Positions 5,264-56,447 of a stretch of 64,000 nt of DNA are shown one piece after another; the stretch's first letter is position 1, and each line of letters begins with the position of its first letter. A program made the translations under genes and the position numbers. A model generated the notes under the pieces. The model searched no databases and had not been told where the DNA came from. It saw only the letters and a list, made by a program, of their open reading frames with translations. The stretch lies in assembly GCA_017430925.1 (NCBI GenBank), contig JAFRMA010000088.1:1-64000 (forward strand), given 5' to 3'. Source of the DNA: Solobacterium sp. Lineage in GTDB: Bacteria > Bacillota_I > Bacilli_A > Erysipelotrichales > Erysipelotrichaceae.

Positions 5264-7276
5264 TTATTTCTTGAAATGTACAGGCATACCGAAGGCGGAG
5301 TTGCCGGCGATATCTGTCGCAAGTACACGAGCCCACTTCATTCCCTTCGGGAAGTCGAAGGAGACTGTCTTTCTGCCGTAAGGAGTTGTGTCTTCCAGAG
5401 GAATGACTACGCTCTGAACATTCTCACCGTCGGAGTAAACCAGTTCAGCGTCAATCAGCGGGAATGTCCAGCTGAATGTAGCATCCGCATGTCCATCCTT
5501 GAGTTCGGACTCTTCGATGAGGATCTCACCTGTAGAGTAGAAGTGTCTGCCCTGACGAAGAGCATCAACGAGTTCCTGCCAGTTTTCAGAAGAAGGAATG
5601 TGGTCGAGCTGTACATAAGTGCAGTTGATCATACCGTACTGTTCCCAGTCTTCTTCACGTTCTTCAACCTTGGTATAGGTATCCAGTTCGCTCATCATAT
5701 AGATCGGTCTGTCATACCAGTTGTTCAGGTCGTTCCAGACACGGTCTGTACGTCCGGAGAACATGGTCTTGACGGAGTTGTCTGCCGGCAGCATACGTGC
5801 GCCGCAGCCGATCCATCTGTCAGAAGTCTGCCAGTTGGTTTCCTTGGAGTCATAAGGCAGACCATCATTAGCCTTTGTATCCGGATGAGGCATCTGGATG
5901 AAGCAGTCTTCCAGTTCACACATCTTGATGACATCTGCAGCACTCTTCAGGTGGTAGTAAGTTCTGCCATCCGGTAATTTCTCTGCGAATTCCTGGTCAT
6001 CATCTCTCCATCTGGAGTACAGCATATGATGAGAAGGCCATACCATGAAGTGATAAGGGATTAACTGTTTTTCTTTGTCCTTACCCATAACCGCGATTTC
6101 TTCGCCGGTAACGAGCAGGAAGTCGGGTGTAGATACATATGTAGATTCGAGATTGTAGCGTTCCAGGTCAGCTTTACGGCCTTCCTTGTTGTCGTCATTT
6201 CTTCCTTCAGCCCAGAAATCTGCCGGGGAGAAGATATCAAAGCCTACTTCTTTCAGAGCCAGCTCCCAAGGTCTCTGTTTACGGTAGTCACGCGCAAACG
6301 CAGCCTGGGAAGCGATATGCATATGGGAACCTAATCTCTGATAACCATTCAGTTTACGGAGATGATCGTGGTTGGTATACTTCATTGCCATATTACGGCA
6401 ATCGTAGATACCTTCACTGTTGACAACGAGGAAGAAGTTCATTTTCTGGATTGTGCCGGGTTTGGCGTTGTATAACGGCCAGCGGACGTTGAAGTGCTCT
6501 TGTTCTTTATTCTGGCGGACACCGATGGCTACGGTCTTCCAGTCTTTGGAGAGGATGTAGTAGTTATAGCCGACAATATTCTCTGTCTGGCCGCCCCAGA
6601 TGAATCTGTGCGGGTTAGGCATTACCGCTACAGCACCATTCGGCTGCTGCAGTGTCAATACACGGCCTCTGGCATCAACTCTCTGACGGTCACGGTCCGG
6701 TCCGCTGTTTGTACGCGGTGCAGGATTTTCGATGACTTCTCTTTTCTTCGGAGTTACATAGTAGAGTTTATCATTCTTGAAGTTGTCCAGTCCTCCGTGA
6801 TAGAGATAGCAGACACCGTCTTCTTCAGTAGAAGCGACAGCTTCAATACGGATCAGGTTGGAACCTTCAAAGAAGTTTACAGCGAAACCGCCGGAGAACT
6901 TACCGCAGGTGAATCCATCCCATGTGACAGTCTGACGATTGCCGGATGTCTCATAGGTGAATGATGTTGTCTTGAAGGAACTGTTGGCTTCTGCCACTTC
7001 CTTCTTGCGGCTCATCGGATCATCAGAGTAGGTATCCCACTGGAAATCCAGTTCTTCACCCGGCGCAAGACCTTTTTCTCTCTGGGGATTGATCTTTGTA
7101 CGTACACCGGTAACGATCTTGAACTGCGGGTGGAGTTTTTCCGCAAGAACTTTCTTCTCGCCGTTTGTCTCGTAGCTCAGTTCAAGGATACAAGGCTTTT
7201 CATCATCGATACCGACTACGGCTGTCCAGGCAAGATGATCTTCACCTGTCCATTTGATTGTTTGTGTATTTGCCAT
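5264..7276 (-). CDS. PHP-domain-like large protein of unknown function, 670 aa
   Basis: The first ~300 residues look beta-rich (GGFAVNFFEGSNLIRIEAVAS; RFIWGGQTE). From about residue 314 there are features of PHP-type metal phosphoesterases: LGSHMHIAS (HxH), VTGEEI, MVWPSHH, and FIQMPHPDTK. There is no signal peptide, so the protein is probably cytoplasmic. Start has AGGAGG 8 nt upstream. The gene lies 33 nt behind the SLC13-type permease gene and probably shares its transcript, suggesting it processes the imported compound. The PHP assignment is my inference from motifs; no precise family is recognised. Confidence 0.6.
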   Translation of the reverse strand: MANTQTIKWTGEDHLAWTAVVGIDDEKPCILELSYETNGEKKVLAEKLHPQFKIVTGVRTKINPQREKGLAPGEELDFQWDTYSDDPMSRKKEVAEANSSFKTTSFTYETSGNRQTVTWDGFTCGKFSGGFAVNFFEGSNLIRIEAVASTEEDGVCYLYHGGLDNFKNDKLYYVTPKKREVIENPAPRTNSGPDRDRQRVDARGRVLTLQQPNGAVAVMPNPHRFIWGGQTENIVGYNYYILSKDWKTVAIGVRQNKEQEHFNVRWPLYNAKPGTIQKMNFFLVVNSEGIYDCRNMAMKYTNHDHLRKLNGYQRLGSHMHIASQAAFARDYRKQRPWELALKEVGFDIFSPADFWAEGRNDDNKEGRKADLERYNLESTYVSTPDFLLVTGEEIAVMGKDKEKQLIPYHFMVWPSHHMLYSRWRDDDQEFAEKLPDGRTYYHLKSAADVIKMCELEDCFIQMPHPDTKANDGLPYDSKETNWQTSDRWIGCGARMLPADNSVKTMFSGRTDRVWNDLNNWYDRPIYMMSELDTYTKVEEREEDWEQYGMINCTYVQLDHIPSSENWQELVDALRQGRHFYSTGEILIEESELKDGHADATFSWTFPLIDAELVYSDGENVQSVVIPLEDTTPYGRKTVSFDFPKGMKWARVLATDIAGNSAFGMPVHFKK

Positions 7277-7309
7277 GAATATAACCTCCTATTTTAGTAT
7301 ATTAGAATA

Positions 7310-8611
7310 TTATTTCGGGAATGCAGGGAACATGTAGGATGTCCAGAGAATCATCGTGACCAGCTTCAGAATCGCCGGAATAATACCCTGTTTGAACATG
7401 GATTTCAGGTCATAACCACCGGATTCCATAACCAGAGGCATGATCGGTGTAGCTGTCGGGAAGAACCAGGCAATCAGAGAAGCGTTCTGGATTGCAAGCA
7501 TCAGACCCTTGGCGCTGCATCCCAGTACTTCGCAGGTCATGATTGCGATCGGGAAGAACAAGTTTGCTGTAGCACCATTGTTCATGAACTGTGTCAGGAT
7601 AATGATGATTAAGCAGAACATGAAGTACATAACGAATGTGCTCGGATGATCACCTAACATAGCAGCAATCTTTTCACCAATGAAGCGGCCTGTACCGGTC
7701 TGTACGAATGCTTCACTCATGACATACGCGCCGATCAGCAGCATCATCAGGGAGATAGGAATAGCGTCGTGAGACTCTTTAACAGTGTTAACACCGGTGA
7801 AGTACATCAATACTGCACATGCGGTTGTGATTTCCCACTGCGCAAGACCAGTCTTGTCGGCAGTAATCAACAGAGCAGTCATGAGAACGAAGATGACAAT
7901 TGCCAGTTTATCCTGTGTCGGAGTAAGTTCACGGGCAGCCTTTTTCTGTTTCAGGTTCAGACCCTTGATTTCAACGGGAGGCTGTTCCGGAGCCATCTTC
8001 AGACCGAAGAATACGAAGTAAGCCAGCATGATCAGGCAGATCGGCAGACGGGCGATAAACGGATCCCAGACACCGAAGGAATCACCGAAGGTGTAACCTG
8101 CACTCTCGAGGAAGCCGTTCAGTCTGACGTAAGCGACAGCACCGGATCCCAGAGGAATGGATGTCTGGTCACTGAGCATCAGAGCTGCCAGCGGGAACAT
8201 AACCTTGGAAGGACTCTTATCAAACTTCTCGCAGACCTCAAGAATCAGAGGATAAACGATAGCCAAACGTGTCAGCGCAGCACCGAGCAGGAAGCCCATG
8301 CCGAACAGGATGACCATGAACAGAGCGATACACTTTTCAAAGCTCCCCCCGGATACCTTGTAAAGTACGTTACCGATGTTCTTGATCAGCTTTGTCTTAC
8401 TGAAGCCTGCCGCAACCATCATCAGACCAGGCATCATGATGACGTTCTGGTCCGCGAACTTGGCTAATGCTGTCTTCGGATCAACGCAGCCCGTCAGAAC
8501 CAGCAGAATGACGACGAACATCGCGATTCCGCCGAAGCTGTACTTGGTGAATCCCAGCATACCAAGCATGACGAGCCAGATTATAATGTTAGTTAAAATC
8601 AAGTTTGTCAT
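7310..8611 (-). CDS. SLC13/ArsB-type (ion transporter superfamily) permease
   Basis: Integral membrane protein of 433 aa with about 10-12 hydrophobic segments. Small-polar hairpin-like stretches LSDQTSIPLGSGAVA (near 150) and TQFMNNGATANLFFPIA (near 355) match the two re-entrant motifs of the DASS/ArsB permease group, which import dicarboxylates, sulfate or related anions. Ribosome site AAAGGAG. It heads an operon with the PHP-like gene. A cre-like site lies ~110 bp upstream, so catabolite repression is likely. Substrate unknown. Confidence 0.82.
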   Translation of the reverse strand: MTNLILTNIIIWLVMLGMLGFTKYSFGGIAMFVVILLVLTGCVDPKTALAKFADQNVIMMPGLMMVAAGFSKTKLIKNIGNVLYKVSGGSFEKCIALFMVILFGMGFLLGAALTRLAIVYPLILEVCEKFDKSPSKVMFPLAALMLSDQTSIPLGSGAVAYVRLNGFLESAGYTFGDSFGVWDPFIARLPICLIMLAYFVFFGLKMAPEQPPVEIKGLNLKQKKAARELTPTQDKLAIVIFVLMTALLITADKTGLAQWEITTACAVLMYFTGVNTVKESHDAIPISLMMLLIGAYVMSEAFVQTGTGRFIGEKIAAMLGDHPSTFVMYFMFCLIIIILTQFMNNGATANLFFPIAIMTCEVLGCSAKGLMLAIQNASLIAWFFPTATPIMPLVMESGGYDLKSMFKQGIIPAILKLVTMILWTSYMFPAFPK

Positions 8612-8719
8612 TATATTTCTCCTTTCCCTTTATGAATTTGCATAATGACACGCAATTCTTTTTGCACACTAAACGTAACATCAGATGAGAAAGACACAAA
8701 TCGCAGATATTTATCGATG

Positions 8720-8735
8720 ATAAAAGCGCTTACAA
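8720..8735. promoter_or_regulatory. Probable cre (CcpA) site in the divergent promoter region
   Basis: ATAAAAGCGCTTACAA matches the cre consensus WTGNNARCGNWWWCAW at all fixed positions except one (G to A at position 3) and holds the AAGCGCTT core. It lies between the permease operon (start 8611, minus) and the Nudix gene (start 8778, plus). Confidence 0.6.
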
Positions 8736-8765
8736 ATATACGCACAGGGAATCGGATGTATACGC

Positions 8766-8771
8766 TATAAT
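8766..8771 (+). promoter_or_regulatory. -10 element of the Nudix gene, likely leaderless
   Basis: A consensus TATAAT ends 6 nt before the ATG at 8778, placing the transcript start on the start codon. No Shine-Dalgarno sequence is present. No good -35 hexamer is seen 16-18 nt upstream. Confidence 0.55.
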
Positions 8772-8777
8772 ACTTCT

Positions 8778-9383
8778 ATGAATATTGATGATATCCGAAA
8801 GGCATTCCGTAACCGGGAAGAATCACCGGTCACCCACGCGGTCATGATTCCCTTGATTGAGAAAGAAAACACCCTGTATATCCTGTTTGAAGTACGTAAC
8901 AGGAATATTTCACAGGGTGGAGAGATCTGTTTCCCGGGAGGAAGGATTGAAACCGGAGAAGACCCTGAAACAGCGTTGATCCGGGAAGTATGCGAAGAAC
9001 TGCTGGTGCAGGAAGATCAGATCCAGATCCTGGACCCTCTCCCCGGCACATTTACTTCCCGAGGAAGACAAGTCCGGGTATATACCGGTGTGATCCATGA
9101 TTACCGGGAGACATACGATTCCGGAGAAACAGAAAAGATCCTCCTGTTTAAACTGGAGGATCTGATGAATACAAAACCGGAGATCTATCAGGTACCAATG
9201 AAACTGGAGTTTGAGGATACTTTCCCGTTCTCACAGATTCCCCATGGAAGAGAGTATCCGTTCCGTACACGTACAGAATCTTTTTATTTCTATACGCAGG
9301 ATGGATATACGATCTGGGGACTGACCGGGCGTATCCTGTATGCCTTCTTCAGAATCTGCGGCAGGAATACAGAACGGGAATAA
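8778..9383 (+). CDS. Nudix hydrolase, CoA-pyrophosphatase-like
   Basis: Hydrolyses a nucleoside diphosphate linked to another moiety. The Nudix box is complete: Gly55, Glu61, then R69-E70-V-C-E73-E74-L. The preceding CFPGGRIE and N-terminal VMIPLIEKENTLYILFEVR resemble the CoA-pyrophosphatase subgroup (YeaB/NUDT7), though CoA specificity is only inferred. Length 201 aa is typical. The mRNA appears leaderless. The gene stands alone; the LysR gene downstream converges with only 7 bp between stop codons. Confidence 0.85.
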   Translation: MNIDDIRKAFRNREESPVTHAVMIPLIEKENTLYILFEVRNRNISQGGEICFPGGRIETGEDPETALIREVCEELLVQEDQIQILDPLPGTFTSRGRQVRVYTGVIHDYRETYDSGETEKILLFKLEDLMNTKPEIYQVPMKLEFEDTFPFSQIPHGREYPFRTRTESFYFYTQDGYTIWGLTGRILYAFFRICGRNTERE

Positions 9384-9390
9384 TCCTTTC

Positions 9391-10299
9391 TTACCAGTGA
9401 TACGTGGTATTACGATCCAGTGTACGGCTGTCTCTTTGCCATGTTTTCGCAAAGTCGGAAAGAAGCATAGACAAGGGATTTAACGGTTCTTCACGCCATG
9501 TGAGTATAAGATTTTCAGGTTCTGTCTGTTCCAGCAGGATCGGGATGGTTTTCAATCCATAAATACTCTTACGGAAATGACGCATGGTATTGAAGGTGAT
9601 TCCGACCGCATCTGAATTCAGGATCAGACTGATCTTGGCATCCATACCTTCACATAAGTAAGCAATTTCCGGTTCAAACCCGTACTCTTTACAGATGGAA
9701 TAAACTCTTTCAATCTTCCCGTTATTCCGGGCATTGAAGACAAAATGCTGGTCTTTCAGTTCTTCCAGGCGTACAGATTCTCTGGACGCGAAGGGAGAAT
9801 TATTTTTTACCATCAGGAAAAGACCGGATTGTCTGGCAATACGCACTCCCGGCAGGTCGCCGGCACTGCTTTCCGGCACAACAAAGAAATCCAGATCACT
9901 CATCAGGTAATCATCCATGATTGCCTTTTCATCATAGAGTTCGATCCGGATATCCGGATATTGATCCTGAAAATCCGATAATAAGAAGTACAGAGAATCA
10001 CTGTCCATCATCACACCGATCTTCAGTACGCCGGTTTCTTTGGATGATTCACGTACACGATGTAAAGTCATTTCCTGCATCTGGATGATCTTCCGGGCAC
10101 AAGTAAGAAAGTATCTTCCGTCCGGGTTCAGTTTCAGGTGTTTCCCTGAACGGTCAAACAGACGTGTACCCAGTTCTTTTTCCAGCTTGGTTATGGATGC
10201 GCTGAGGGTAGATTGTGAGACATTCGCTTCTTCTGCCGCAATCGTCATATTCTCGCACTCTGCCAGTTTGACAAAGGCCTTCAGGTTTTCAATCTCCAT
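9391..10299 (-). CDS. LysR-family transcriptional regulator
   Basis: DNA-binding regulator: winged helix-turn-helix at residues 1-60 (LKAFVKLAECENMTIAAEEANVSQSTLSASITKLEKEL) and a LysR substrate domain from ~90. I start it at 10299 because GGAAGGAG precedes this ATG; an upstream in-frame start would add 11 residues. It overlaps the preceding LysR gene by 11 bp, so the two are translationally coupled. Two LysR proteins in one operon with an esterase-like gene suggest paired sensing of a related ligand. Ligand unknown. Confidence 0.88.
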   Translation of the reverse strand: MEIENLKAFVKLAECENMTIAAEEANVSQSTLSASITKLEKELGTRLFDRSGKHLKLNPDGRYFLTCARKIIQMQEMTLHRVRESSKETGVLKIGVMMDSDSLYFLLSDFQDQYPDIRIELYDEKAIMDDYLMSDLDFFVVPESSAGDLPGVRIARQSGLFLMVKNNSPFASRESVRLEELKDQHFVFNARNNGKIERVYSICKEYGFEPEIAYLCEGMDAKISLILNSDAVGITFNTMRHFRKSIYGLKTIPILLEQTEPENLILTWREEPLNPLSMLLSDFAKTWQRDSRTLDRNTTYHW

Positions 10300-53079: not shown

Positions 53080-53904
53080 CTAACTCTTCAGGGCATCACC
53101 ATCCAGAAGATACCGGCACTTATTGACCAGATCCATAGACCATTCAACACCATGCCGGGCAAAGGGATCATTATCGGATTCTCTTCTTCGGAATACATGT
53201 TCGGCTCTTTGTGCCCAATACAAGGCATATAACGGATCCTGTTCACAGCCGGTACCATTTGCGTAACAATCCGCGTATCTGACGTAGACATCCGCGTCAT
53301 ACTCTTTAGCGTCTTCACCCTCTTTGTTGACAATATCGACGCAGTGGGAATAAATCTGATAGGCTTCTTTCAGGTCCTGATTGACGTAAAATCCGTTCTT
53401 GTACATATCACCGATCTTGTACAAAGACGTAACTCTGCCCTGGAAGGCTCCTTTAGCAAAACATTCGAATGCCTTCGCATAGTCTACGTCACAGTCACGG
53501 CCGTAGTAATAACAGTAACCTAGATTCTCGATTGCCTGGATATCACCGCTGTCAGCCGCAATCTCGTACAGATCCATGGCCTTGCGGTAAGACTGTTCAC
53601 CAATCTGTCCGGTATAGTATAGGGCACCAAGGTTACAGGCGGCGACACCGCTGCCCTGGTTGATCCCCTGAAGAAGGATACCTTCTACCAGTTCTCTGAC
53701 GACCGGGGGCATAGGGTCTTTTCGCATATAACTGAAAATATTGTTGGGATAATCCAGAACATCCGCTTCCGGGTTTCTGTCAGCATACGCTATACCATCT
53801 CTTGCCCAGTCTTTAAATTCTTCCGGGATGTCTTCTTTTAACAGCAGTTTAAGATCAGCAACCACGGATTTTACCGTATATGTTAAGTCAATTTTAAACA
53901 TCAT
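53080..53904 (-). CDS. Sel1-repeat (TPR-like) protein
   Basis: 274 aa, cytoplasmic. Residues ~85-250 hold several Sel1-like repeats: AACNLGALYYTGQIGEQSYRK, AIENLGYCYYYGRDCDVDYAK, SLYKIGDMYKNGFYVNQDLKE, and a final YADCYANGTGCEQDPL. Such repeats form protein-interaction solenoids. The N-terminal ~70 residues are unique. GAAAGGGG precedes the start (ATGATG; either could be used). A 27-bp repeat also found upstream of the sigma gene lies 60 bp before it, hinting at shared control. Confidence 0.87.
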   Translation of the reverse strand: MMFKIDLTYTVKSVVADLKLLLKEDIPEEFKDWARDGIAYADRNPEADVLDYPNNIFSYMRKDPMPPVVRELVEGILLQGINQGSGVAACNLGALYYTGQIGEQSYRKAMDLYEIAADSGDIQAIENLGYCYYYGRDCDVDYAKAFECFAKGAFQGRVTSLYKIGDMYKNGFYVNQDLKEAYQIYSHCVDIVNKEGEDAKEYDADVYVRYADCYANGTGCEQDPLYALYWAQRAEHVFRRRESDNDPFARHGVEWSMDLVNKCRYLLDGDALKS

Positions 53905-53963: not shown

Positions 53964-53990
53964 CGCCTCCCATTTGCACAGTGGTGCTGA
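53964..53990 (+). repeat. 27-bp direct repeat, copy A
   Basis: Begins CGCCTCCCATTTGCACAGT; identical to copy B at 56403-56429 except one base (G/A at position 20). It contains GCAC-N4-GTGC and follows a run of A. The two copies flank the sigma/anti-sigma pair in the same orientation. Confidence 0.75.
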
Positions 53991-54207
53991 GTGATTGTCT
54001 ATTTATCGGGTTTTTGTGACATCTGATCAACGATTTTTTGTGATAAAGGTCATCAAAGAATAAAATCAACGAACAGGATTCATTCCAAAAGGGTTCCTGT
54101 AATGATAGCCAGATCATAGCGTATCAGATTTTCTGATCCAAACAAATAACAATAAAGGGGCTGTACGAAACGGCTGACTTGTCCGTCGGTACTACCCCTG
54201 TTTTTTT
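53991..54207 (+). ncRNA. Possible structured transcript in a 368-bp gene-free gap
   Basis: No coding frame. It holds hairpins ACAGGA/TCCTGT (near 54074-54101) and ATCAG/CTGAT (near 54123-54137), and ends in a plus-strand terminator (54156-54207) although no plus-strand gene precedes it. Candidate small RNA or 5' leader; no known RNA family is recognised. Confidence 0.3.
54156..54207. terminator. Strong terminator, possibly bidirectional
   Basis: AGGGG (54156-54160) pairs with CCCCT (54195-54199), with inner pairing GTAC/GTAC and ACGG/CCGT, then seven T on plus. On minus the stem is followed by TTTATTGTT, so it could end the sigma/anti-sigma transcript. Confidence 0.7.
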
Positions 54208-54215
54208 ATCTCGGT

Positions 54216-54271
54216 CAGAAGGACTCTTTGATCTGTGCTGATCCGTAAAGGAGCCCTTCTGTTTCTTTTTT
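54216..54271 (+). terminator. Second plus-strand terminator
   Basis: CAGAAGGACTCTTT (54216-54229) pairs with AAAGGAGCCCTTCTG (54247-54261), two irregularities, then TTTCTTTTTT. Lies 2 bp from the anti-sigma stop codon and would stop plus-strand transcription before it becomes antisense to that gene. Confidence 0.6.
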
Positions 54272-54272
54272 C

Positions 54273-54455
54273 TCAGTCATCATCACGGTCATCATGATCA
54301 TCATCGTCATAGTCATCGCGATCGTCGTAGTCATCGTGATCATCATCGAGGTCGTCGTCATGATCGTCGTGATCATCGAAGTCATCGCGGTCATCATCGG
54401 ATCTGTCATCAATGTCATCAATGTCATCGGCATCCTCATGATCATCGTCTTCATC
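54273..54455 (-). repeat. GAY/CAY triplet-rich coding repeat (Asp/His tail)
   Basis: About 180 bp made almost wholly of GAT/GAC/CAT/CAC codons with occasional CGx, TAx and TTx, giving a DDx-type period. Slippage could change its length without frameshift. The antisense frames read as long Ile/Val runs and are not genes. Confidence 0.75.
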
Positions 54456-55667
54456 CTGCGGCTCTTTTTCGCTTTTCAGGATCTTTCCGCTTGATGCATC
54501 GACTTCATAATCATACTCCTGACCATCGGAATCAAATTCGATCTCATATTTCAAGATCCCGTCTTCGTATTCGAGTTCGATCTTGAGATCGGTGATCTGT
54601 GCTTCGCTTAAACCGGCATGGCTCAAGGCGTTTCGTTTTGCCTCTTCCTGGCTGATGATCTTATCCACGGATGGCGCAGCGGCTGATGTCGAAGTTGCAG
54701 ATGATCTGGTCTTTTTCGAATGAAGGACGGCTGCGTTCAGTGCATCGATCTTGTATTCATAGTCGTATTCTTCATAGCGGAATTCCACTTCATAGATCAT
54801 GCGGCCGTTTTCATAGTCCAGCTCGGCTTCATTGATGAAGACGTTGCTGCCGGAAATGCCGGCATGGTCAAGGGCAGCCTGTATGGCATTGCGGATGCCG
54901 ATATAGGCCTGATCGCTCGGTTCGCCTTGTCTGTGCGTGATGCTTCCCTCGTTTCTTTTGTTGAGCAGATTGAGTTCATGTATGGTCAGTCCCGCAAGTT
55001 CTTCATACGTGTAAGTATTTGATCCGTCGCAGATTTCTTTGATCAGCTGTGCTTTGCCCAAAGAGATGCCATAGTCTTTGGACAACGTCCGGATCGCATC
55101 ATCCGTAATGACCTGCTGGGAGAGAATGGAGCCGTTGTCGATCAGCTTTGAGATCTCATCCAGCAGTTCCTGTTCCAGATGTTCGCCGCTTTGCCAGTCG
55201 GTGTCAGAGACAGAGACCAGGATCGAATTGTTGATCTCATTGATATAACCTTTCCTCACCAAGGAACCGATCAGGGCGTTTACGGTGACCTTGAGATCCG
55301 ATCCCTTGAAGTCCATGCCGTCAATGATCTTTTCGGCGTCTTCATTCAAGGCATTCACCTGCAGCACTTTTTCATTCCTGTTGATAGAGACCTCGATGCT
55401 CGGATTGACATCAAGACAGATCGTCGCAAAGGATCGGAAATTGGTCCGGTAAGTATTCATTCCCAAAAACATAAGCAGCAGACATGCCATAGCCAGCGAC
55501 AGCTTGAAGAAGACCGGATAACGCTTTTCCTGAGCTGTGCCTGAGGCAAGATACCATTCATCACCTTTCGCTTTTTCGACCGACATATCATAGAGATCTT
55601 TCTTTTCGACGGACATCTGATCATCTCCGTCTTGAAGCAGTTTATTCAGTTTTTTATTTGTCAGCAT
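54273..55667 (-). CDS. RsgI-like anti-sigma factor with PepSY-like repeats and Asp/His-rich tail
   Basis: 464 aa membrane-spanning anti-sigma factor for the adjacent ECF sigma factor. Residues 1-50 are cytoplasmic; one helix spans ~51-70. The outside part begins with CLDVNPSIEVSINRNEKV (85-102), the RsgI-type domain; in studied RsgI proteins the Asn-Pro bond (here 88-89) is self-cleaved. Two PepSY-like repeats follow (~265-330, ~345-402: IISQEEAKRNALSHAG, LEYEDGILKYEIEFDSDGQEY). The last 60 residues (405-464) contain 41 Asp and 5 His. Starts 1 bp after the sigma gene. Confidence 0.87.
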   Translation of the reverse strand: MLTNKKLNKLLQDGDDQMSVEKKDLYDMSVEKAKGDEWYLASGTAQEKRYPVFFKLSLAMACLLLMFLGMNTYRTNFRSFATICLDVNPSIEVSINRNEKVLQVNALNEDAEKIIDGMDFKGSDLKVTVNALIGSLVRKGYINEINNSILVSVSDTDWQSGEHLEQELLDEISKLIDNGSILSQQVITDDAIRTLSKDYGISLGKAQLIKEICDGSNTYTYEELAGLTIHELNLLNKRNEGSITHRQGEPSDQAYIGIRNAIQAALDHAGISGSNVFINEAELDYENGRMIYEVEFRYEEYDYEYKIDALNAAVLHSKKTRSSATSTSAAAPSVDKIISQEEAKRNALSHAGLSEAQITDLKIELEYEDGILKYEIEFDSDGQEYDYEVDASSGKILKSEKEPQDEDDDHEDADDIDDIDDRSDDDRDDFDDHDDHDDDLDDDHDDYDDRDDYDDDDHDDRDDD

Positions 55668-55668
55668 A

Positions 55669-56220
55669 TTACAATTTTCCTTCCAGTTCTTTTCTCAGTT
55701 TTGACAGTCCCCGGTGGTATTTTGAAAGTACCGTAGGAAGCTTCAGTTCCATGATCCCGGCGATATCGGCGAATTTCATTTCCGATACCGCACGCAAGAG
55801 GATGATCTGGTGTTCCTGATCGTTCAGCACTTTGAATGCCGCCGCAAGAGTCAGACGCAGCGAAGGATCGCTGTGAGATTCAAAGATCAGCTGACTGTCC
55901 AGATCTTCGATCGGAACAGGCATCATTTTCTGCTGTTCCCTGAATCTCATCTGACACAGGTTTCTGGCGATCGTGAAGATCCATGCCCGGGCCTTGCCCT
56001 TTCCACGGTATGTGTGAGCGGCTGCCCTGACCTTCAGGAAACAGTCCTGCATCACTTCTTCCGCATCATGTCTGTTTTTTAAGATCGATAATGCATAAGC
56101 GAAGATCGGACGGTACAGCCTTTCATAAAGACAGTTGAAAGCCTCCCTGTCATCCAGGGCGATCTTGTGAAGCAATCCATCTTCGTCGATCATTGACAGA
56201 TCCTCTTTGTTCTCAGACAT
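55669..56220 (-). CDS. ECF-type RNA polymerase sigma factor
   Basis: 183 aa. Region 2 (FNCLYERLYRPIFAYALSILKNRHDAEEVMQDCFLKV) and region 4 (LNDQEHQIILLRAVSEMKFADIAGIMELKLPTVLSKYHRGLSKLRKEL) are both complete. I start it at 56220, where GGGGAGGAG lies 4 nt upstream; a longer frame would add 17 residues. It precedes the RsgI-like gene by 1 bp, so the sigma factor is held by that protein until an envelope signal arrives. Target genes are unknown; the Sel1 gene with the shared 27-bp motif is a candidate. Confidence 0.93.
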   Translation of the reverse strand: MSENKEDLSMIDEDGLLHKIALDDREAFNCLYERLYRPIFAYALSILKNRHDAEEVMQDCFLKVRAAAHTYRGKGKARAWIFTIARNLCQMRFREQQKMMPVPIEDLDSQLIFESHSDPSLRLTLAAAFKVLNDQEHQIILLRAVSEMKFADIAGIMELKLPTVLSKYHRGLSKLRKELEGKL

Positions 56221-56402
56221 GTTCTCCTCCCCTATTCTTGTAATACAAGAATATTCTAAATCATAATTCATCGTTTTCCCTCTGTACGACGACGATGTTC
56301 AGACTTAAGATCTTCGCAAACGTTTTATCTTTCCATCGCCTTCATAAATACGATGCACAAAGGACCATTTTTATTGCACACTTTGAAAAGAAAACAAAAA
56401 AC

Positions 56403-56429
56403 CGCCTCCCATTTGCACAGTAGTGCTGA
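56403..56429 (+). repeat. 27-bp direct repeat, copy B
   Basis: Second copy of the element at 53964-53990, one mismatch, also preceded by an A run. It lies 183 bp upstream of the sigma gene and 76 bp upstream of the S-component gene. Confidence 0.75.
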
Positions 56430-56447
56430 TTTCGGTAATTCAGGTTT

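Follow-up and report, generated by a model that had tools for sequence, protein, structure and literature searches.

The window analysed here is a 64-kb stretch of DNA from a genome of 2.7 Mb in 115 contigs, and its minus strand carries a sigma factor gene together with the gene of an anti-sigma factor. The anti-sigma gene occupies 54273..55667 and encodes a protein of 464 aa. This protein begins with a cytoplasmic N-terminal segment, residues 1–53 (55509..55667), which was delimited by alignment of relatives, shares a KAKGDEWYL motif at residues 32–40 with close relatives and is presumed to be the sigma-binding part. It continues with a transmembrane helix at residues 52–76 (55440..55514), recognized from the model helix and the hydrophobic sequence, an RsgI_M or SEAL-type domain at residues 80–235 (54963..55430), assigned by Pfam and by fold matches in the PDB, two PepSY domains at residues 245–321 (54705..54935) and 338–404 (54456..54656), and an Asp-rich tail at residues 405–464 (54276..54455), all on the minus strand. 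The AlphaFold2 model (mean pLDDT 75, pTM 0.55) has the same layout, with the single helix, a well predicted SEAL domain and the PepSY pair, beyond which the tail is unstructured. The closest named relatives, found in a single-protein scan (2 loci), are the MAGs Solobacterium sp. RUI586 and uncultured Erysipelotrichaceae RUG14176.

Pfam places RsgI_M (PF23750) at residues 81–211 with E = 2e-29 and 103.3 bits against a cut-off of 25.3, and the fold matches of this domain include PDB 8hdj_B (Z 17.2, 2.4 A over 149 residues) and 8t9n, the RsgI of B. subtilis (Z 15.5). A profile of nine relatives, built on the first 250 residues, matched six solved sequences, all titled RsgI or anti-sigma factor, and in five of these six P89 aligns with the first residue of the chain. 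N88, P89 and S90 are invariant, both in the 10 rows of one alignment and in the 19 rows of another. The alignments point to a predicted Asn-Pro self-cleavage site in the SEAL domain, at Asn88-Pro89 (55401..55406, minus strand). The same genome also encodes an RseP-type M50 protease (E = 5e-58). Further outward, Pfam PepSY matches in two stretches (E = 1.8e-17), the best being residues 338–400; the first PepSY domain was drawn from the model, with a PepSY HMM match (E = 2.3e-4) that falls short of the family cut-off. According to Pfam, the model and the fold comparison, which was also made with Foldseek, the two domains stand in tandem and are extracytoplasmic. Their closest solved structure is 4exr (Z 12.7 over residues 231–402, with a sequence match of E = 3.3e-5), and further fold matches are YpmB (2gu3, Z 9.6), YpeB (Z 8.9), UipA (7ath, Z 6.4) and a YPMB-MREC model entry.

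The tail consists of 60 codons, delimited by composition and by the model. Among the final 60 residues there are 41 Asp, 5 His, 4 Arg, 2 Glu, 2 Ile and 2 Tyr, and Ala, Ser, Phe and Leu occur once each. The count at 54276–54455 bears out the preliminary description, which had reported a 60-residue tail with 41 Asp and 5 His and whose start at 54273 included the stop codon of the gene (54273–54275); the predicted topology, with its one transmembrane helix, likewise agrees with its placing of the tail at the outer end of the protein. Its near-perfect GAY/CAY triplet repeats are right only in part, since 46 of the 60 codons are indeed GAY or CAY but the longest run of a single codon is 3 and the pattern is mostly one of Asp-Asp-x units. 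The Asp codons are mixed (GAT:GAC = 25:16), and TRF returned overlapping low-score arrays with periods of 9–42. The tail carries a net charge of −39 when His is counted as neutral; for the whole ectodomain the figure is −69. Among the open frames of at least 80 aa in the window, the runner-up Asp count per 60 residues is 11. The pattern GAYGAYNNNGAYGAYNNNGAYGAY was matched 8 times in the own genome, every time within the tail, and its reversed control gave 0 matches in the same 2.7 Mb. The Asp-rich tail is sound as an observation and is not a matter of chance. Residues 407–456 and 458–464 have pLDDT below 50 and neither helix nor strand, and the model predicts an extracytoplasmic disordered region beyond the SEAL domain. 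No EF-hand or RTX-type repeat family was among the Pfam matches at E up to 1, a search in which profiles cover low-complexity tails poorly. An Ile/Val-rich open frame on the plus strand opposite the tail (54294–54494) is a mere mirror of the GAY repeats.

The partner gene (55669..56271, minus strand) encodes an ECF sigma factor, with matches to Sigma70_r2 (E = 1e-17), Sigma70_r4_2 (E = 5.7e-8) and TIGR02937 (E = 1e-20); an inner ATG may be its real start. The RsgI_N domain is absent from the anti-sigma protein according to Pfam and had 0 matches in the whole own genome, whereas the control search detected it in B. subtilis. Lacking RsgI_N and paired with an ECF sigma factor instead of SigI, the protein is not a true RsgI, and a true SigI/RsgI pair is ruled out. 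The term RsgI-like, which had been applied to the anti-sigma factor, thus fits its outer domain, RsgI-type by Pfam, cut site and fold, but not its N-terminal part or its partner.

The sigma open frame overlaps or abuts the anti-sigma frame in each of the 26 closest (core) members of the family. Upstream of the sigma gene lies a predicted autopromoter, TGCAATAAAA-N12-GCATCGTA (56349..56378, minus strand). With at most one mismatch, TGCAATAAAA is present upstream of 24 of the 26 family sigma genes, against about 1.2 expected from shuffles, and an AT-rich −10 element, e.g. GCATTGTA, follows 12 bases after it. The full promoter pattern with up to 2 mismatches has a single match in the own genome, namely upstream of the own sigma gene, and 14 matches in eight genomes pooled versus 1 for the reversed control. 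The TGCAATAAAA element is a good candidate for the sigma factor's own promoter, and a conserved element of this kind is a new finding, beyond the preliminary description. An initial search with the canonical GAAC-type ECF promoter pattern gave nothing conserved. We set aside one promoter-like match in contig C50 of genome G042, opposite an annotated-looking gene, and the 2-mismatch matches at loci L125–L128; all of these are probably due to chance. Sigma regions 2 and 4, the adjacent anti-sigma gene and the candidate promoter element together characterize an ECF sigma factor with its own anti-sigma factor.

The gene pair lies within a block at 54020..56439 (no strand assigned) that is 97.9% identical to positions 7229–9664 of locus L062 in G038, a distant genome of the genus. 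Apart from a 34-bp repeat, the rest of the 64-kb window has no match in L062 (10.3 kb), and a core region around rseP is 67–73% identical where it matches in G038. The same 2.4 kb in different contexts in two distant genomes indicates recent transfer, so that 54020–56439 is likely a recently transferred 2.4-kb sigma/anti-sigma cassette. Contamination of G038 is rated at 8%; this might put a contig in the wrong genome, yet it would not produce the breakpoints. On either side of the cassette there is a copy of a 26-bp direct repeat, CAGCACYACTGTGCAAATGGGAGGCG (53964–53989 and 56403–56428, minus strand), upstream of a Sel1-repeat gene and of the sigma gene, respectively. These are its only two copies in the own genome, and G038 has one; the repeat may mark a place of recombination or serve as a shared regulatory element. 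The Sel1-repeat protein gene itself (53080–53904, minus strand) is situated just downstream of the anti-sigma gene, and the homology with L062 stops before it.

We further compared the tail among relatives. The query protein without its tail is matched in 22 of the 70 genus genomes, many of the matches being PepSY alone, and ten genus loci (L001–L010) carry the RsgI_M part with high scores. The copy at L002 is 99% identical and has the same tail save for two in-frame indels, one a loss of 9 bp and the other a gain of 24 bp, with 0 substitutions; the aligned block of these near-identical copies holds 18 substitutions, none of them in the tail. A shorter acidic tail is found at L003 (62%), while L042, a near sister at 63% identity, lacks the tail and ends in ADHDD. 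The proteins of L005 and L006 likewise end after PepSY without a tail. Those of L007–L010 (30–34%) contain no PepSY and bear an Asp-rich end directly after the SEAL domain. The earlier suggestion that triplet slippage could tune the length holds insofar as repeat units were turned over between the two near-identical copies, but these units are of 9 and 24 bp and not single triplets. Together with a longest one-codon run of 3, these indel sizes rule out that the tail arose by slippage of single triplets.

In the wider family, profile matches were obtained in 97 of 272 genomes, spread over 33 of 59 genera. We counted an end as Asp-rich when any stretch of 40 residues beyond the SEAL domain held 14 or more Asp. 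Such ends occur in 29 of 86 distinct family ORFs, taken from loci chosen by score and not at random and with identical sequences counted once, versus 0 of 190 control ORFs, which were drawn from these loci with a minimum length of 200 aa and among which are possibly non-coding frames. The repeat units differ among the tails, being DDx here and DDSDY, GPNNDGVTDYND or DDDSDD elsewhere. Tandem end units such as TDYGPNNDGVTDYND or DDSDY are carried by L030 (G069), L082, L085, L086, L088, L092, L094, L095, L102, L106, L108 and L111, some of them in two adjacent genes, and by eye they resemble the Ca-binding NxDGxxD spacing. His-rich tails on a separate branch were considered as a second metal-type end; at least 4 His per 40 residues are seen in 21 of 86 family members versus 52 of 190 control ORFs, and these ends were left unused as evidence because they are not enriched over the controls.

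On a quick tree of 59 of the 86 rows (E up to 1e-13; 11 of 54 inner branches starred), at least 9 changes of the Asp-rich state are required, 5 of them forced by starred branches, compared with an average of 16.7 for shuffles, and the PepSY state needs 4. Within the 26 core members, an Asp-rich end is present in 9 and missing in 17, although L004 and L052 of these 17 run off their contigs, as does L053. The tail is therefore a recurring accessory and not a fixed part of these proteins. With the sigma gene adjacent in all 26 and the autopromoter in 24, the anti-sigma module persists without it. The preliminary description had named, as a finding that would count against a sensing tail, its absence from most relatives with normal sigma control; this is partly what we see, in 17 tail-less core members that all keep the sigma gene.

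The PepSY part varies as well. In G054 and G041, whose anti-sigma factors have no PepSY, strong extra promoter matches lie 49–51 bases upstream of a gene whose small product has a signal-like N-terminus. The small protein of G041 is a Pfam PepSY protein (E = 1.2e-14); that of G054 has no significant Pfam family and is 33% identical to it. Such a secreted PepSY-type protein is encoded in 5 of the 70 genus genomes, namely G041, G042, G054, G068 and G048. The first four are exactly the four genomes with a PepSY-less anti-sigma factor, and in G048 (80% complete) the anti-sigma factor was not found, though the PepSY-type protein is present. The promoter is present, with 0 to 3 mismatches, at −49 to −53 of each of the five genes, while it is absent (best 5 to 8 mismatches) from eight PepSY lipoprotein genes in genomes without a close family member. 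In G068 no promoter is matched at 2 mismatches, and the promoters of the sigma gene and of the PepSY-type gene were recognized only through a variant −10 common to both, GCATTAAC. At family level 18 of 272 genomes match the PepSY-type protein at E up to 1e-6, strongly (E below 1e-59) only in the five, the other 13 being weak (1e-7 to 1e-10). The co-occurrence of a PepSY-less anti-sigma factor with the secreted PepSY-type gene has a hypergeometric probability of 5.5e-6, which overstates the evidence because the four PepSY-less members share ancestry; they form one (open) group on the tree, so that the PepSY-less anti-sigma factor and the secreted PepSY gene may be one event. These observations suggest two ways of supplying PepSY, in fusion with the anti-sigma factor or as a secreted protein under control of the sigma factor.

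Self-cleaving anti-sigma factors of the RsgI type serve as a model of how bacteria convert the state of the cell wall into gene expression. In excerpts of two papers that cite Brunet 2022 (PMC13059805, PMC10202637), B. subtilis RsgI is cut constitutively, its halves stay associated until a wall defect is sensed, and its extracytoplasmic disordered region is the proposed sensor of peptidoglycan gaps; for C. thermocellum RsgI, an excerpt of PMC12203970 gives autocleavage outside, then RseP, then degradation by ClpXP. By analogy, we infer that the Asp tail is a disordered sensor end of the B. subtilis RsgI kind that has been made strongly anionic. Our main reading, to which we give a probability of about one half, is that the tail is the polyanionic, disordered outer sensor end of a self-cutting membrane anti-sigma factor and serves as a wall-sensing handle. 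The SEAL domain would cut itself at N88|P89 with the halves remaining together, and the fragment of PepSY domains plus tail would extend into the wall. An altered wall state or charge environment would then pull off or release the outer half, RseP would cleave the membrane stub, and the freed sigma factor would transcribe its own operon and, in relatives, the secreted PepSY-type protein. The tail would act as a long, stretched, highly charged handle rather than as a defined binding site, and gain or loss of repeat units could alter its reach. Different units and recurrent change on the tree are as expected if bulk disorder and charge outweigh exact sequence. In plain terms, a membrane switch protein of a gut or rumen bacterium restrains a gene activator, and its acidic tail probably helps to sense the state of the wall or ions.

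Some points speak against a handle. The 17 tail-less core members, with the near sister L042 among them, imply that other ectodomain ends serve as well; the Asp bias exceeds what a neutral disordered linker needs; and published metal-binding members of the PepSY family favour a chemical ligand. Charge bias and PepSY domains together leave room for a cation or cationic peptide as signal; the preliminary description had suggested that the tail could bind Ca, Mg, Zn or cationic peptides. A possible reading, which we hold only tentatively, is that a metal (Ca, Mg, Fe or a trivalent ion) or a cationic peptide binds to the Asp/His tail together with the acidic PepSY pair and that its occupancy governs the separation of the cut SEAL halves, with the secreted PepSY-type protein as a sigma-controlled scavenger or buffer of the same ligand. 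Judging from excerpts, two tandem PepSY proteins bind metals, UipA binding uranyl through a negatively charged face (PMC8963506) and LanPepSY binding lanthanides (PMC11845868), and the strongly negative tail and ectodomain as well as the predicted regulon of the relatives, a secreted PepSY-type protein, are consistent with such a sensor. Yet a metal site is only hypothetical, with Pfam matches containing no EF-hand or RTX-type family, the likeness to UipA is weak, and His is not kept across the tails.

The two repeat-unit indels in a tail without substitutions, the tail-less L042 and the recurrent gain or loss on the tree are also what mostly neutral low-complexity drift would leave, in which a short array at a tolerant C-terminus grows and shrinks with little effect on signalling. 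We regard such drift as unlikely, however, for no examined ORF outside the family has an Asp-rich end, these ends arose with differing units, the Asp codons are a mixture of GAT and GAC and not one expanded triplet, and the four PepSY-less members all retain Asp-rich ends. The tail might instead be a spacer, or an element for solubility or protection from proteases, attached to a PepSY ectodomain that senses alone, for example via a cell-wall partner. YpmB of B. subtilis, which contacts MreC, is an example of a PepSY protein with such a partner; both YpmB and a YPMB-MREC model entry are among our fold matches, and tail-less PepSY arrays are the commoner ectodomain in the core family. At L007–L010, however, where PepSY is lacking altogether, the tail comes straight after the SEAL domain and so is not a mere PepSY accessory; we consider a spacer very improbable.

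Beyond the wall-sensing handle itself, we put forward a wider and rather doubtful proposal for an undescribed envelope sensor of the Erysipelotrichaceae. A SEAL anti-ECF-sigma factor would use its disordered poly-Asp end and PepSY to read the charge or the cations of the wall, and the freed sigma factor would make more acidic sensor material, in cis as fused PepSY or in trans as the secreted PepSY-type protein from a promoter of the same kind, so that feedback would buffer the signal; the reach would be tuned by turnover of repeat units, and the 2.4-kb module would move between species. The family couples an RsgI-type device to an ECF sigma factor, with an outer end that is swapped among PepSY arrays, Asp-rich disordered tails and both, and it offers a readable promoter and a small predicted regulon. 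Its members thus lend themselves to a comparison of wall gaps, charge and metals as the possible signals of such sensors.

In the open-licence literature we found nothing that joins RsgI, anti-sigma and PepSY and nothing relevant on an anti-sigma factor with an acidic or aspartate-rich tail. By title, the same literature held nothing on a system of PepSY, anti-sigma and ECF, and its work on RsgI-like proteins, the RsgI family or RsgI homologs concerns cellulosomes or transcriptomes. The known systems can nevertheless be compared part by part. YpmB and YpeB, PepSY proteins of Bacilli, share the PepSY fold and are not known to have a SEAL domain or a sigma partner. The putative lipoprotein CD1622 (4exr) is the closest solved fold to the PepSY pair, but its entry is titled as a lipoprotein and its chain of 174 residues contains no anti-sigma part. 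UipA and LanPepSY resemble the ectodomain in their tandem extracytoplasmic PepSY domains and acidic character; however, they are binding proteins, whereas PepSY is here carried on an anti-sigma factor, and the structural likeness to UipA is low (Z 6.4). With RsgI of B. subtilis and C. thermocellum the protein has in common the SEAL fold, the Asn|Pro site, the single transmembrane helix and a sensor end beyond SEAL, which in B. subtilis, again going by the excerpts, is a disordered region proposed as the sensor. Unlike RsgI, it has no RsgI_N and is paired with an ECF sigma factor, and carbohydrate-binding modules are replaced by PepSY domains and the Asp-rich tail. The system is a new form of the RsgI/SEAL kind, in which PepSY domains and a disordered, Asp-rich end are combined with an ECF partner.
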